The translations under genes were made by a program, and so were the position numbers. A model generated the notes under the pieces. That model did not search any database. It saw only the letters and a list, made by a program, of their open reading frames with translations, and was not told the DNA's origin. DNA of 46,761 nucleotides from an uncultured Erysipelotrichaceae bacterium (GTDB taxonomy: Bacteria; Bacillota_I; Bacilli_A; RFN20; CAG-826). This document shows, piece by piece, positions 12,362-39,647 of this stretch (positions are counted from its first letter, which is position 1; each line of letters opens with the position of its first letter). The DNA is taken from the NCBI GenBank assembly GCA_900315885.1, contig ONAT01000011.1:1-46761 (forward strand), written 5' to 3'.

Positions 12362-12395
12362 TTGCCTTATAATGTCATTTGGAAGGAGAAAGTAT

Positions 12396-12749
12396 ATGAA
12401 TGATGGAATAAGAATTATACCATTTGAAAATGGTTTAACTATAAAAATATTTGGTGAATTAGATAGTTATCATGTTTTAGGGTATAAAGAAAAAATAGTT
12501 TTAGAAATGCGAAAGCACCAAGCTTCGAAACTTTTATGGGATTTAAAGAATGTTTCTTTGTTTGATAGTGCGGGTATAGGACTAATTTTAGGAAGATATA
12601 ACGAAATAAGGCGTGTTGGAGGAATGTGTGGGTTTCTTACACTTAGTACTTACACAAGAAAAATAGTTAATTTGACAGGCCTATCATCAATCATGGATGA
12701 ATACAAAAATGTTAACGAATTTAAGAAAAGAGGAAAAATAACAATATGA
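12396..12749 (+). CDS. spoIIAA: Anti-sigma F factor antagonist SpoIIAA
   Basis: 117 residues from the ATG at 12396, the same length as in B. subtilis; GGAAGGAG lies just before it, whereas an ATG at 12372 has none. It is a STAS-domain protein that, when unphosphorylated, binds SpoIIAB and frees sigma F in the forespore. The phosphorylated serine is Ser58 in LFDSAGIGLILGRY, at exactly the same residue number as in B. subtilis. Its stop overlaps the spoIIAB start by ATGA. Confidence 0.95.
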   Translation: MNDGIRIIPFENGLTIKIFGELDSYHVLGYKEKIVLEMRKHQASKLLWDLKNVSLFDSAGIGLILGRYNEIRRVGGMCGFLTLSTYTRKIVNLTGLSSIMDEYKNVNEFKKRGKITI

Positions 12750-13192
12750 ACGAGATGGAATTACGCTTCAAAGCAAATTTAACAAATGAATCATTAGCAA
12801 GAAATGCAGTCATAAGCTTTGTAGCATTTTTGAATCCGACAATGGAGCAAATTAGTGAGCTTAAAACTATCATATCGGAAGGTGTTAGTAATGCAATAAT
12901 TCACGGATATAAATTAAATCCTGAACGTGATGTAATAATTAAAGCAAGTATAAATAAAGATACTTTAAATCTTATTATTCTAGATTATGGCGTTGGTATA
13001 AAAGATATAGAGCAAGCGAAAAAGCCAAATTTTACGACGAGACCAGATTTAGAAAGAGCAGGAATGGGATTATCGATTATTGATTCTTTATCGGATGAAT
13101 TTGAAATTCAATCCGTAGTTAATGTGGGAACAAAACTAATAATTAAAAAATCTTTAGCAAATACAAAGTGTGAAATATATGGCAATTGCTGA
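12746..13192 (+). CDS. spoIIAB: Anti-sigma F factor and protein kinase SpoIIAB
   Basis: 148 residues. It is a GHKL-fold serine kinase that holds sigma F inactive and phosphorylates SpoIIAA. Seen are the N box SEGVSNAIIHGY, the G1 box DYGVGI and the G2 region RAGMGLSII for ATP binding. The start overlaps the end of spoIIAA (ATGA) with AGAGGA upstream, and its end overlaps sigF by about 14 bp, so the three are translationally coupled. Its TGA stop is one of several in this window that show the standard genetic code. Confidence 0.95.
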   Translation: MNEMELRFKANLTNESLARNAVISFVAFLNPTMEQISELKTIISEGVSNAIIHGYKLNPERDVIIKASINKDTLNLIILDYGVGIKDIEQAKKPNFTTRPDLERAGMGLSIIDSLSDEFEIQSVVNVGTKLIIKKSLANTKCEIYGNC

Positions 13193-13889
13193 AGAAACAA
13201 TGGCTTTAATTGAAAAAGCGCAGAAAGGTGATCAAGAAGCATTTGCAAAATTAGTCCAAGATAATATGCTTTTAGTCTATAAATTAGCCCATCGTTATAA
13301 ATCTAAATATGTAGAATATGAAGATTTAGTTTCCACTGGAACAATTGGACTTATGAAAGCTATTAAACAATTTGATAAAAATTATGATGTAGAATTTTCA
13401 ACATATGCAGTTCCTCTTATTCTTGGTGAGATAAGAAGATTTTTTAGAGATGATGGCATTATTAAAATATCAAGAGGCACAAAAGATTTAGCAAAAAAAA
13501 TAGAAGAAGTGCGGGAATATATTGATATGACTTATCATCGCGATGCCCATATTGAAGAAATAGCTCAAATGTTACAAGTAGGAATTGAAGATGTCATTAT
13601 GGCTTTAGATGCGAACGTATATCCTTTATCAATTGATGCACCATTAGATGAAGATAATATGACTTTAAAAGATATTATCTTTGATAGTAGTGAACCTGAT
13701 TCATTACTATTAATTGATTTAGAAAATGCGATAAAAAAACTAGATAAAAAAGATCAATTATTTGTTAAACTCCGCTTTTTTGATGAAATGAAACAAACAG
13801 ATTTAGCTCAAAGATTTTCATGTTCTCAGGTGCAAATTTCACGTAAAGAAAAACGAATTCTTGCGCAATTAAAAGAATTAATGTCTTAG
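13179..13889 (+). CDS. sigF: Forespore RNA polymerase sigma factor SigF
   Basis: A sigma-70 family protein of about 236 residues. Region 2 is clear (YEDLVSTGTIGLMKAIKQFD, then FSTYAVPLILGEIRRFFRDDG). Region 3 is the stretch after KISRGTKDLAKKI, and region 4 ends in the helix-turn-helix (QTDLAQRFSCSQVQISRKEKRI). Sequence and position after spoIIAB identify the early forespore factor. The start is uncertain: GTG 13170, ATG 13179 and ATG 13200 are in frame and none has a strong ribosome-binding site. I chose 13179 for overlap coupling with spoIIAB. Confidence 0.93.
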   Translation: MAIAEETMALIEKAQKGDQEAFAKLVQDNMLLVYKLAHRYKSKYVEYEDLVSTGTIGLMKAIKQFDKNYDVEFSTYAVPLILGEIRRFFRDDGIIKISRGTKDLAKKIEEVREYIDMTYHRDAHIEEIAQMLQVGIEDVIMALDANVYPLSIDAPLDEDNMTLKDIIFDSSEPDSLLLIDLENAIKKLDKKDQLFVKLRFFDEMKQTDLAQRFSCSQVQISRKEKRILAQLKELMS

Positions 13890-13934
13890 TATAAAATAAT
13901 TTTTTTGGGTAAACCTTATCTTAGAGGTGTTTAT

Positions 13935-14387
13935 ATGGATAAGGAAAGTTATCAAAAAATAGTAAAAAAGCATGAAATTAAAAATAAACGCACAAAAAAT
14001 GCGCTTATGGCTTTTTTAGTTGGCGGATTTGTTGGTATTTTAGCTAATTTTTTCTATGATATATCTTTAAATTGGATAGGCTTAGAAAAAACAGACGCGG
14101 GAATATTATCAACATTAGGTATTATATTTATCACCACAGTTTTAACTGCGACAAGTCTTTATAATAAAATCGCACGTAAAGCTGGTGCGGGTTTGTTTAT
14201 TCCTACAAGTGGGTTTGCAAATTCCGTAGTTTCTTCCGCAATTGATGCAAAATTTGAAGGACCAGTTTATGGGATTGGTTCACGTATGTTTTATCTTGCA
14301 GGAAGTGTCATAACTTATGGCTTTGTTTTCGCTTTTCTTTATGCACTCATCCGTTTGCTTCTTAGTCTTGTGGGGGTGGCCTTATGA
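13935..14387 (+). CDS. spoVAC: Stage V sporulation protein AC
   Basis: 150 residues from the ATG at 13935 (AGAGGTG at 6 nt), equal to the B. subtilis protein; an in-frame TTG at 13905 lacks a site. It is a membrane protein with four or so hydrophobic segments and the conserved GAGLFIPTSGFANSVVSSA and GIGSRMF regions. It is part of the channel that moves dipicolinic acid into the developing spore and out at germination. Its stop overlaps the spoVAD start. The gap to sigF is only 45 bp with no terminator, so it probably belongs to the sigF operon. spoVAA and spoVAB, which come first in B. subtilis, are absent here. Confidence 0.92.
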   Translation: MDKESYQKIVKKHEIKNKRTKNALMAFLVGGFVGILANFFYDISLNWIGLEKTDAGILSTLGIIFITTVLTATSLYNKIARKAGAGLFIPTSGFANSVVSSAIDAKFEGPVYGIGSRMFYLAGSVITYGFVFAFLYALIRLLLSLVGVAL

Positions 14388-15379
14388 GTTATTCTTTATC
14401 ATTTAAGAGTGTATTTTTACAATCTGGTGCCACAATTGCAGGTAAAAAAGAATTTGAAGGCCCACTAGGAGAATATTTTGATTACCATTATTCAGATAGT
14501 TATCATAAACAAAAAAGTTTTGAAGACGCTGAAGTATTAATGCTTAAAGAGGCAATCCAATTAGCAATAAATAAAGCTCGAATTGACCGTACAAAAATCA
14601 AAGTAGCAATTGGAGGAGATTTATCTAACCAATTAGCAGTATCTTCTTCCGCGATTGAACATTTTGATTTAGCATATTGTGGTGTTTATGGGGCGTGTTC
14701 ATCTTTTATTCTTGCTTTAATTCAAGCGTGTTTAATATGCTCAAATAATCATAATAGTTACACTTTAGCTTTTACTTCCTCTTCATATGCGACAAGTGAG
14801 AGACAATTTAGATTTCCCATTGAATATGGAATTCAAAAGAAAGATACAGTAACGACAACGGTTACGGGCGCAGCAAGTGCAGTTTTAGGCAAAAGAGCCA
14901 CGAAAATCAAAGTGACAAGAGCGACAATTGGAAAAGTCTATGACGCGAACTGGGACAATGTTAACGATGTCGGTTCACCAATGGCGCTTGCCGCTTATCA
15001 TACAATTAAAGATCATTTAGATAATAATAATTTATCAGCTTCATATTATGATTTAATTCTTACCGGAGATTTATCAAATATTGGTAGTAAAATTTTATTA
15101 GATTGTTTCAAAACAGATGGCATTATTTTAGATAATTATAATGATGCGGGAAATCTAATATATCATAAAGGCGATAATGATATTCATGCTGGAGGAAGCG
15201 GACCAGCTTGTATTGGATTAGTAAGTATGTCTTACATTTTAAACCTTATTGAAAAGAAAGAATTAAAACGTGTATTACTTGTGGGAACTGGTGCTTTATA
15301 TTCACCAACGATGTGTTTTCAACATCACACTATACCTATTGTAGCGCACGCGATTGAATTGGAGGTAAATGAAAAATGA
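14384..15379 (+). CDS. spoVAD: Stage V sporulation protein AD
   Basis: 331 residues, close to the usual 338. It has a thiolase-like fold that binds dipicolinic acid on the spore inner membrane. Conserved features seen are GVYGACSSFILALIQA (the thiolase-like cysteine site) and TGAASAVLG, plus HAGGSGPACIGLVSMSYIL near the end. The start overlaps spoVAC (ATGA) with a GGGGGTGG site; the end overlaps spoVAE (ATGA). Tight coupling suits equal production of the SpoVA channel parts. Confidence 0.95.
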   Translation: MSYSLSFKSVFLQSGATIAGKKEFEGPLGEYFDYHYSDSYHKQKSFEDAEVLMLKEAIQLAINKARIDRTKIKVAIGGDLSNQLAVSSSAIEHFDLAYCGVYGACSSFILALIQACLICSNNHNSYTLAFTSSSYATSERQFRFPIEYGIQKKDTVTTTVTGAASAVLGKRATKIKVTRATIGKVYDANWDNVNDVGSPMALAAYHTIKDHLDNNNLSASYYDLILTGDLSNIGSKILLDCFKTDGIILDNYNDAGNLIYHKGDNDIHAGGSGPACIGLVSMSYILNLIEKKELKRVLLVGTGALYSPTMCFQHHTIPIVAHAIELEVNEK

Positions 15380-15726
15380 CATACTTATGTGCTTTTGCTT
15401 TTTCTGGTTTATTATGTCTTATTGCACAAATTATTTTTGATAATTCAAAATTGACACCAGGACACATTACATCCATCTATGTAGTTGTGGGCGTTTTATT
15501 AACTACTGGAGGAGCGTATGAGTGGCTTCTCAAAATGTGTGGTGGAGGCGCTATGACTCCTATTACTAATTTTGGATATGTTCTTGGTAATGCCGCATTA
15601 GAGGGAGCTAAAGAAGGAGGAGTGCTTGGAATTTTAAAAGGAATGCTTAAAGATTCATCCGCGGTTTTATCTTTTACTGTGGTTATGGCTTTTTTAGCAT
15701 CATTGTTTTCTAAGCCTAGACCATAA
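15376..15726 (+). CDS. spoVAE: Stage V sporulation protein AE (AEb type)
   Basis: 116 residues, the usual size of SpoVAEb. It is a membrane protein with hydrophobic segments at about 4-22, 33-52 and 92-112, and with the conserved PGHITSIYVVVG, GGAMTPITNFGYVLGNAA and KEGGVLGILKGML elements. It is part of the SpoVA dipicolinate channel. It overlaps spoVAD at its start and shares one base with the next gene. Confidence 0.93.
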   Translation: MTYLCAFAFSGLLCLIAQIIFDNSKLTPGHITSIYVVVGVLLTTGGAYEWLLKMCGGGAMTPITNFGYVLGNAALEGAKEGGVLGILKGMLKDSSAVLSFTVVMAFLASLFSKPRP

Positions 15727-37278: not shown

Positions 37279-38475
37279 ATGGAAATGAAGTATGATCACA
37301 TTATGGTGCGTTTCGGAGAATTGTCCACCAAAGGAAAGAATAAAAAAGACTTTATCTTTCGTTTAGGAGATAATATTCGTAATGCTTTAAAAGAATATAA
37401 AAGTTTAACATATCAAGTGCGCATGGATCACATTTATATAAAATTAAATGATGAAAATCCTGAAACAGTTATTGAAAGATTAAAAGATGTATCAGGTATT
37501 TATTCGTTTTCACTTGTTATTAAAACCGATACTGATATTGAAAATCTCAAGAATGTCGTTTTAGATTTATTGCTTAAAGAAAATAAAAAGACATTTAAAA
37601 TGCGCGCAAAAAGAGCGGATAAATTATATCCAATCATTAGTGATGACATAAATCGTATTATTGCGGGACACGTTTTAAAAAATAGTGAATACAAAGTCGA
37701 TGTTCATAACCCTGATGTTTTAGTGTCTATTACAATTCGTAACGACGCTGCTTATATTTACACAAGTGACATTGTAGGAGCGGGAGGATATCCTTTAGGT
37801 GTCGGAGGTAAAGCATTAATGATGATGTCAGGAGGTATTGATTCACCTGTAGCTTCATATTTACTTATGAAACGTGGTGTTGCAATTGAATGTGTGCATT
37901 TTGCTGCCCCTCCATACACTAATGCAGCGGTAATTGATAAAATAAAAGACTTATGTAAAGAACTGAATCGTTACCAAGCAAAAATTAAAGTCCACGTTGT
38001 GCCATTTACTAAATTACAAGAAGACATTTATAAATATTCTAATGAATCTTACGCTATAACAATTATGCGTCGTATGATGTATCGCATAAGCGAAAGATTA
38101 GCAAAAAAATATAAATGTTTGGCGTTAGCAAATGGCGAATCTATTGGACAAGTCGCTTCCCAAACATTAGTGTCTATGGATGTAATTAATGCCGTAACTA
38201 ATATGCCAGTCATAAGACCTTTGGCAATTTTTGATAAAACAGATATTATTAAAATTTCAAAGAAAATTAATACATATGCTATTTCTATTAGACCATATGA
38301 AGATTGTTGTACAATTTTTGCTCCTAAAAACCCTAAAACGATGCCAAAACTAGAAGAAGTTGAGGCTTTTGAAGAAAAATGGGATTATGAATCAGAAATA
38401 AATGACTGTATTTCTAATGCCGAAACTATCGTAGTTACAAGCGAAAATGAAGATAATTTAAAAAATTATTTATAA
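37279..38475 (+). CDS. thiI: tRNA 4-thiouridine synthase ThiI
   Basis: 398 residues. It makes s4U8 in tRNA and can supply sulfur for thiamine. A ferredoxin-like N-terminus (MVRFGELSTKGKNKKDF) and THUMP domain (to about 165) are followed by the ATPase PP-loop SGGIDS at 184-189 and YEDCCTIFAPKNPKTMP. As in other Firmicutes there is no C-terminal rhodanese domain, so the persulfide relay must use the cysteines present here. It has an AAAGGAG site and is co-transcribed with the desulfurase. Confidence 0.95.
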   Translation: MEMKYDHIMVRFGELSTKGKNKKDFIFRLGDNIRNALKEYKSLTYQVRMDHIYIKLNDENPETVIERLKDVSGIYSFSLVIKTDTDIENLKNVVLDLLLKENKKTFKMRAKRADKLYPIISDDINRIIAGHVLKNSEYKVDVHNPDVLVSITIRNDAAYIYTSDIVGAGGYPLGVGGKALMMMSGGIDSPVASYLLMKRGVAIECVHFAAPPYTNAAVIDKIKDLCKELNRYQAKIKVHVVPFTKLQEDIYKYSNESYAITIMRRMMYRISERLAKKYKCLALANGESIGQVASQTLVSMDVINAVTNMPVIRPLAIFDKTDIIKISKKINTYAISIRPYEDCCTIFAPKNPKTMPKLEEVEAFEEKWDYESEINDCISNAETIVVTSENEDNLKNYL

Positions 38476-38521
38476 AATTTGAAATACGACAAAAAATAAC
38501 CTCAATAGGAGGTGAATTGTT

Positions 38522-38710
38522 GTGAGACAAGGTTCAAACAAATCCACTACAAGAAAGACTAGTGCGAAGAAAACTACTAGACGTAATACTAAGCACGAAT
38601 ATGCTGAAGATTATGGTGTTACATCAAACAGAACACGCAATAATACAAGATCTGCATGTTCATCAAGAAGCACAAAATCAAGCACTCGTTCTTCTAGAAA
38701 AGGTCAATAA
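38522..38710 (+). CDS. Tiny basic protein in the sspA position, SASP-like candidate
   Basis: 62 residues, GTG start 7 nt after a near-perfect AGGAGGTG. Almost half of it is Arg, Lys, Ser or Thr, with many TRxxT and SSRSTKSS units, and it has no hydrophobic core. In its centre is KHEYAEDYGV, which resembles the KxEIAxEFGV part of alpha/beta small acid-soluble spore proteins and the EFASE-type site cut by the GPR protease. In B. subtilis sspA follows thiI and precedes ytfI-ytfJ; this gene is in the same place. A DNA-binding spore protein is therefore plausible. It does not carry the second SASP motif, so it may be a different basic protein. Confidence 0.5.
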   Translation: MRQGSNKSTTRKTSAKKTTRRNTKHEYAEDYGVTSNRTRNNTRSACSSRSTKSSTRSSRKGQ

Positions 38711-38800: not shown

Positions 38801-39277
38801 ATGAAAATATTAGAAATTATCCTTGTTACTATTTTAGTTATCCTCTTATTAATAAGTTTGCTCTTATTATTGCCATTACGAATTTGTGCAATTTTAGATG
38901 AGAAATACTTAACAATAAAATTAGGTCGTTTAAAAGTATTTCGTATTGAAAGTGCTAAGTTAATAGCGAATATTTTACAAAGTGAACGCCAAAAAATTGA
39001 AATTAATGTTAAGAGTTTAATCGAAAGTTTTTTATTTGTGGGATTAGAGATTATATACGCTAATGAACAAGTTGATGTCAGCGATTATTTGCTTTTTGGT
39101 GCATTAGGAATAATTAATCTTTTCATACCTAATACTTATATACATCATTTTATATTTAAAAGAGTAACCACAGATGATAAATCTAAGATTATTGTTGTTG
39201 TAAAAATACAAATATTAAAGACATTACTAAATGTCATGATTAATACAAGGAGCAAAAGTTATGAAAAAATCGGTTAA
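38801..39277 (+). CDS. ytfI: Membrane-anchored DUF2953-like protein (YtfI-like)
   Basis: 158 residues. One N-terminal membrane helix (about 5-29, IILVTILVILLLISLLLLLPL) is followed by a soluble domain that starts RICAILDEKYLTIKLGRLKVF, split at LR, like DUF2953 proteins. The next gene is gerW/ytfJ and overlaps it by 17 bp, the same pair as ytfI-ytfJ in B. subtilis. It is shorter than the usual 200 or more residues. No ribosome-binding site precedes the ATG, and a CATACTA box ends 5 nt before it, so the message may be leaderless. Function unknown. Confidence 0.6.
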   Translation: MKILEIILVTILVILLLISLLLLLPLRICAILDEKYLTIKLGRLKVFRIESAKLIANILQSERQKIEINVKSLIESFLFVGLEIIYANEQVDVSDYLLFGALGIINLFIPNTYIHHFIFKRVTTDDKSKIIVVVKIQILKTLLNVMINTRSKSYEKIG

Positions 39278-39647
39278 AGAACTTGTTTTATCTACAATAA
39301 ATAGCATGCATAGTATTTTTGATTCTAGCAATATTGTGGGAACACCAATAAAAATTAATGAAAGAGAAGTCATTGTGCCAATTGCTAAATTAACATTTGG
39401 CTTTGGTGTCGGAGGAGGAGATGTAGAAGAGAAAAAAGAAAAAAATGATCTTCTATTTGAATTCTCAGATGAAGGACCAATTATGGGTGGCAGTTTAGGT
39501 GGCTTAACTTTAGTGCCTGAAGCATTTTTGTATGTTAATAACGGAGAAGTAGAAATAATAAAAATGAAAGAGAATAAGTCAGTGTATGACCGTCTCTTTG
39601 ATATCTATAAAGACGTAAGTAAATATATGAAAAAACAAAAAAGATAG
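39261..39647 (+). CDS. ytfJ: GerW family sporulation protein YtfJ
   Basis: 128 residues. The family core is clear: VGTPIKINEREVIVPIAKLTFGFGVGGGD, interrupted by a charged loop, then GPIMGGSLGGLTLVPEAFLYV. In B. subtilis GerW (YtfJ) is made in the forespore and is needed for normal spore germination with L-alanine. The glycine-rich part probably forms a strand core. It has a GGAG site within ytfI and is co-transcribed with it. Its stop lies in the base of the shared terminator. Confidence 0.88.
   Translation: MKKSVKELVLSTINSMHSIFDSSNIVGTPIKINEREVIVPIAKLTFGFGVGGGDVEEKKEKNDLLFEFSDEGPIMGGSLGGLTLVPEAFLYVNNGEVEIIKMKENKSVYDRLFDIYKDVSKYMKKQKR

Follow-up and report, generated by a model that had tools for sequence, protein, structure and literature searches.

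Between thiI and ytfI-ytfJ, where B. subtilis has sspA, the DNA stretch analysed here (the window, 46,761 nucleotides from an uncultured Erysipelotrichaceae bacterium) encodes a strongly basic protein of 62 residues with a segment resembling the GPR site of SASPs, raising the question of whether this ORF is a divergent SASP, as the initial annotation had suggested, or an unrelated protein. Our analysis points, as the probable answer, to a protamine-like protein that has either derived from an α/β SASP in place or replaced one there, and that would be made in the forespore and cleaved by GPR.

A short basic ORF between thiI and ytfJ

The ORF (38522..38710, forward strand) begins with GTG, has an alternative in-frame TTG start at 38519 and is preceded by the ribosome-binding site AGGAGG (38507..38512, forward strand). 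Its product, MRQGSNKSTTRKTSAKKTTRRNTKHEYAEDYGVTSNRTRNNTRSACSSRSTKSSTRSSRKGQ, is composed of a basic N-terminal tail (MRQGSNKSTTRKTSAKKTTRRNT; 38522..38590, forward strand) that is well kept in the alignment of the genus, the GPR-type site KHEYAEDYGV with the core EYAED (residues 24-33; 38591..38620, forward strand), and a Ser/Thr/Arg-rich C-terminal tail (38621..38707, forward strand) that, judging from sequence and model, would replace the DNA-binding domain of SASPs. The protein is, as first described, very basic, Ser/Thr/Arg-rich and unlike usual SASPs; its net charge is +14 and it does not match PF00269. Searches of Pfam and NCBIfam returned no match at any useful level. This Arg/Lys/Ser/Thr-rich chain is probably disordered, and structure prediction (mean pLDDT 59.8, no secondary structure) was uninformative beyond that probable disorder.

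The neighbourhood is as first described, with thiI upstream (37279..38475, forward strand; PF02568, E 2e-68) and, downstream, a 158-aa membrane-type protein at the ytfI position (38801..39277, forward strand), which lies at the same place in congeners and has no match in a Pfam scan, followed by ytfJ, encoding a sporulation protein of the GerW family (39261..39647, forward strand; PF09579, E 4e-16; TIGR02874, E 2e-20, below its cut-off). The same window, part of a 97%-complete assembly of 1.32 Mb in 39 contigs, also holds the sporulation sigma-F operon (12372-15726), in which spoIIAA, spoIIAB, an ORF at the sigF position (13170-13889) and spoVAC (together 12372..14387, forward strand; spoIIAA, spoIIAB and spoVAC by NCBIfam matches to TIGR02886, TIGR01925 and TIGR02838) are followed by two ORFs in the spoVAD/spoVAE positions. 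Elsewhere in the window, a weak RHS-core match was seen at 2258-2854 (TIGR03696, E 5e-4, below cut-off).

The two congeners with an assembled locus, G005 and G036, have homologues in the same order and place and beside the same neighbours. These encode proteins of 81 and 79 aa, both of which align with the window protein at 61% identity, and the site is conserved in them as KYEYGEDYGV and KYEYGEDYDV. In the fourth genome of the genus, G058, matches to thiI, ytfJ and the ORF are all absent, and the assembly probably lacks this locus. Comparison of the two congeners with the window gene gave dN versus dS values of 0.30 versus 0.74 and 0.33 versus 0.73, comparison of the congeners with each other gave 0.08 versus 0.33, and the window gene and its G005 counterpart, compared over the initial 38 codons of the alignment, which cover tail and site, gave a dN of 0.11 and a dS of 0.44. 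Length changes among these homologues are in-frame, and start, ribosome-binding site and site are conserved.

SASPs, GPR and the sspA position across the order

Standard SASP genes elsewhere, combined with a KHEYAEDYGV segment not kept in relatives, would speak against a divergent SASP at this locus. The segment is kept in both congeners with an assembled locus, and no α/β SASP was found over cut-off in the four genomes of the genus (0/4) or in the 146 genomes of the family (0/146); the control search was positive in 1 of 14 genomes, as expected for B. subtilis. GPR (PF03418) and SpoIVA (PF09547) were each found in 4/146 family genomes, the same four, all of this genus, and both are missing in the remaining 34 genera of the family sample. 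The host bacteria, an uncultured gut group, are probably spore-forming. Their GPR, represented by L061 in the window's own genome (289 aa, E 6e-52 in the profile search), resembles B. megaterium GPR (1c8b, E 7e-40) and retains the DALGP and IDsLA segments, which we take to hold the catalytic aspartates.

GPR is present in 27/279 genomes of the order. Four of these 27 (G269, G270, G271 and G273) have PF00269 SASPs over cut-off, 23 are without, and γ-SASPs (PF04259) over cut-off were found in none of the 27, while YtfJ was found in 23 and not found in G058, G174, G176 and G177. In G270 and G273, a canonical SASP sits directly between thiI and ytfI, which upholds the designation of this place as the sspA position within the order itself. 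G269 carries its canonical SASP approximately 1.4 kb upstream of ytfJ, and in L172, apparently the same locus, a canonical SASP lies one gene further upstream; canonical SASPs are near ytfJ in three of the four SASP-bearing genomes, the SASP of G271 being on another contig than ytfJ. The two canonical proteins that were scanned match PF00269 with E values of 1e-14 and 3e-16.

Since BLAST matches to the 62-residue protein (15/146 family genomes at E<=10) are weak and composition-driven outside the genus, synteny was used to find sspA-position genes. A non-canonical short, mostly basic protein was found at this position in 17 of the 27 GPR-positive genomes (G000, G005, G036, G146, G172, G173, G175, G180, G181, G183, G185, G186, G187-G190 and G272), and no such ORF was seen in G178 and G184, where ytfJ is present. 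Net charge is +6 to +17 in 14 of the 15 distinct non-canonical proteins. Neither the window protein nor any of eight further non-canonical proteins scanned (8/8) matches PF00269 at E<=10, and membership in the α/β SASPs by profile is rejected; membership in the γ-SASPs is likewise rejected, as the protein has no PF04259 match and none of the 27 genomes has one over cut-off. The G272 protein (L106 reverse strand 576-788), which has the pentapeptide EFASD, is hardly basic (net +1) and belongs to a family in which other members keep canonical SASPs, may be an intermediate form or another kind of GPR substrate. The basic low-complexity tails do not align between genera, and common descent of these proteins therefore rests on place, site and leader. 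Other genera of the family contributed 27 of the 30 ThiI loci returned, 24 of them reaching 1 kb or more downstream, and these 27 loci contain no ytfJ and no short basic ORF with the site.

The GPR-type site, promoter and leader

A passage of PMC8452069 gives the SASP sequence cut by GPR as 'EIA'. The canonical SASPs at the same locus in G273 and G270 carry KYEIANEFGV and KYEIAQEFGV, respectively, and KHEYAEDYGV of the window protein, with EYA in place of EIA, is more like KYEIANEFGV than any of 5000 shuffles (0/5000 as similar), in line with the initial reading of this segment as close to the SASP/GPR site. Repeating this BLOSUM 10-mer comparison against the canonical sites for the 15 distinct proteins (G173 and G175 were left out as near-identical to G172) gave 0/5000 shuffles for G000, G005, G036 and G172 and a rate of 0.0024 for G187, and thus significance in 5/15, with p between 0.07 and 0.76 for the other ten; in each of the three species of the genus, the 10-mer beats all 5000 shuffles. 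A looser pentapeptide, E[FYIVLM][AGS]x[DE], is present in 15 of the 17 non-canonical sspA-position proteins, in the versions EYAED, EYGED, EIATE, EYGQE, EYGRE, EYGSE, EFAED, EFADE, EFSND, EFGED, EFAEE and EFASD. It arises in 0.06% of shuffles of the window protein (0.0002 to 0.027 across the individual proteins) and in a single one of 269 further ORFs from the fetched loci that are likewise short and basic (50-90 aa, >=20% Lys+Arg). This genus thus shows a strong likeness over the full ten residues; elsewhere the evidence consists of the pentapeptide together with place. Two basic sspA-position proteins from GPR-positive genomes, G183 (L125:594-764) and G146 (L127 reverse strand 429-641), have no recognisable GPR pentapeptide.

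The GPRs of the order carry a motif of the same form, D[FIL][AI]xE, near the N-terminus in 27/27 cases (L058-L061, L069-L091), possibly at the position of zymogen self-cleavage; if GPR does cleave itself there, the motif is an in-lineage record of the taste of the enzyme, and it matches the SASP-locus site. A DNA-level search with the ten-residue pattern K-x-E-x-[AG]-x-[DE]-x-(Gxx codon)-(xTx codon) matched a small number of other genes besides the three already known, and as a reversed-pattern control gives similar counts, the pattern alone proves nothing. A similar word, KxEFGEDVAF, occurs at another locus in both G005 and G058 (G005:C48:63173 and G058:C31:11932). We found no second short basic protein with a GPR-type site in the window's own genome in 95 stretches around the best 100 of 115 matches; of the short closed ORFs among the matches listed, one is taken to be ribosomal protein S15 and the others are not Ser/Arg-rich, and none is SASP-like.

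Upstream of the ORF lies a putative forespore promoter of the sigmaF/G type (38470..38498, forward strand), consisting of TTATA (38470-38474), 14 nt and ACAAAAAATA (38489-38498). The corresponding pattern, NNATA-N13-16-NNNNANA[ACT]TA within 70 nt upstream, is common to basic and canonical genes with a fixed spacing and is found in 17 of 18 sspA-position genes (15/15 distinct non-canonical and two of three canonical genes, the miss being L172), a descriptive figure because the pattern was framed after the sequences had been seen. The mean in 1000 mononucleotide shuffles was 2.97 and the maximum 9, and 23/197 other ORF starts of the loci have the pattern. It resembles the consensus sequences given in a passage of PMC3416734 (GTATA / GGNAANAMTR for sigmaF and GNATA / CAWAMTA for sigmaG), and forespore expression of the 62-residue protein would be consistent with this resemblance. 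A scan of the gpr genes for -35/-10 elements revealed no uniform pattern. Near the ribosome-binding site, a leader, TGC[AC]GGAGGTGA, is common to the canonical genes of G270, G273 and L172 and the basic genes of G172, G189 and G190, which argues for descent in place.

A candidate replacement for the α/β SASPs

The initial suggestion of a divergent SASP finds support in the place of the gene, in the occurrence of GPR and SpoIVA in exactly this genus and in the forespore-type look of the promoter. Judged by its place, its promoter-like signal, its site and the co-occurrence pattern, the protein would be SASP-like in its working; by sequence, it is not a PF00269 member. Like the α/β SASPs (SspA/SspB; PF00269), it is small, is encoded at the same genomic position behind a putative forespore-type promoter and a leader, and has in this genus a site of the form K-x-E-x-[AG]-x-[DE]-[FY]-[GD]-V; unlike them, it has no PF00269 match, and protamine-like tails replace the domain that follows the site (GSVGGEITKRLV in G273). 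This conserved DNA-binding domain (GGEITKRLV type) is absent from the window protein by sequence, and the model has no secondary structure. Protamines are short, Arg/Lys/Ser/Thr-rich and of high positive charge, and the window protein, like them and like basic histone-like tails, is short, rich in these residues, highly positive and probably disordered. This is a resemblance only; the protein, unlike protamines, is bacterial and has a protease site built in, and we claim no sequence relationship.

We propose that the protein would be made in the forespore from the sigmaF/sigmaG-type promoter and that, in the manner of protamines, electrostatic binding by its disordered, Arg/Lys- and Ser/Thr-rich tails would neutralise the chromosome. 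DNA binding is predicted from charge: a chain with +14 on 62 residues and without predicted structure should bind DNA by charge. During germination, GPR would cut after Glu26 in H-E/Y-A-E-D-Y (the slash marking the bond), leaving two shorter tails; cleavage would release the DNA, and the amino acids would feed outgrowth. We infer that the gene descends from sspA rather than having been substituted by an unrelated gene, with locus, promoter, leader and GPR site retained, and with the DNA-binding domain of the sspA product lost in favour of low-complexity basic tails.

γ-SASPs are cleaved by GPR at sites of the E-[FY]-A-x-[ED] type. The window protein shares such a site and low complexity with the γ-type SASPs (SspE; PF04259), and it differs from them in being very basic and in having a single site. 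According to the text seen of PMC7985256, γ-SASPs do not bind DNA, and an improbable, although not negligible, alternative is that the sspA-position proteins are γ-like forespore proteins that serve as a GPR-cleaved amino-acid store or as a counter-ion and form no DNA coat, the DNA being guarded by HU or by nothing special. A low-complexity composition is typical of storage, and the G272 version is hardly basic; by contrast, the high positive charge of the other 14 distinct proteins, their place, which in relatives is that of a DNA-binding α/β SASP, and the fact that most GPR-positive genomes have no α/β SASP over cut-off and that no further SASP was recognised in the genus itself all favour a DNA-coating role.

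Less likely still, an unrelated small gene may have taken over the sspA site and promoter, with a GPR-like pentapeptide that serves for removal only and a function other than DNA coating. The lack of homology that could be aligned beyond the site, basic tails that do not align from one genus to another and the empty Pfam result would fit such a takeover, yet the leader and promoter held in common with canonical sspA genes and the ten-residue site likeness in the genus favour descent in place. That the ORF is spurious or decaying in a genome losing sporulation, as its low complexity, the small MAG genomes and the restriction of GPR and SpoIVA to this genus of the family might suggest, is rejected as very improbable, since dN is below dS in all three pairs, indels are in-frame, start, ribosome-binding site and site are conserved, and none of the 27 loci sampled in other genera has the ORF.

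For the order as a whole, we regard it as evenly balanced whether most GPR-positive members have lost the SASP fold and package spore DNA with protamine-like proteins that retain nothing of sspA but its GPR site, locus and promoter. The titles, abstracts and passages covered by our literature search did not describe any SASP that is protamine-like or that escapes the profiles. In the parts seen, PMC11536998 mentions UBA660 MAGs and contains neither 'acid-soluble' nor 'ssp', and PMC3533761 lists a small number of non-spore-formers that are positive for Spo0A and lack SASP genes. For RF39, which may be the GTDB order of the genomes compared here, PMC10868615 predicts spore formation and uses KEGG orthologues to infer that all sporulation-related SASPs had been lost ancestrally. 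Our counts bear on this last claim, as standard SASPs persist in 4 of the 27 GPR-positive genomes and 17 have a profile-invisible SASP-locus protein. A protamine-like stand-in would also run against the view, expressed in a passage of PMC7985256, that evidence suggests α/β SASPs in all endospore formers. If the reading given above for the order as a whole is true, this would be a natural case in which a structured DNA-coating protein gave way to a disordered polycation while the removal system stayed fixed, spore DNA would not be in the SASP-bound form and a different UV photochemistry would be expected. A lineage keeping GPR while swapping the SASP for a protamine-like chain would separate what spores require of their DNA coat, charge and quick removal, from the extras of the SASP fold, DNA geometry and spore photoproduct chemistry.
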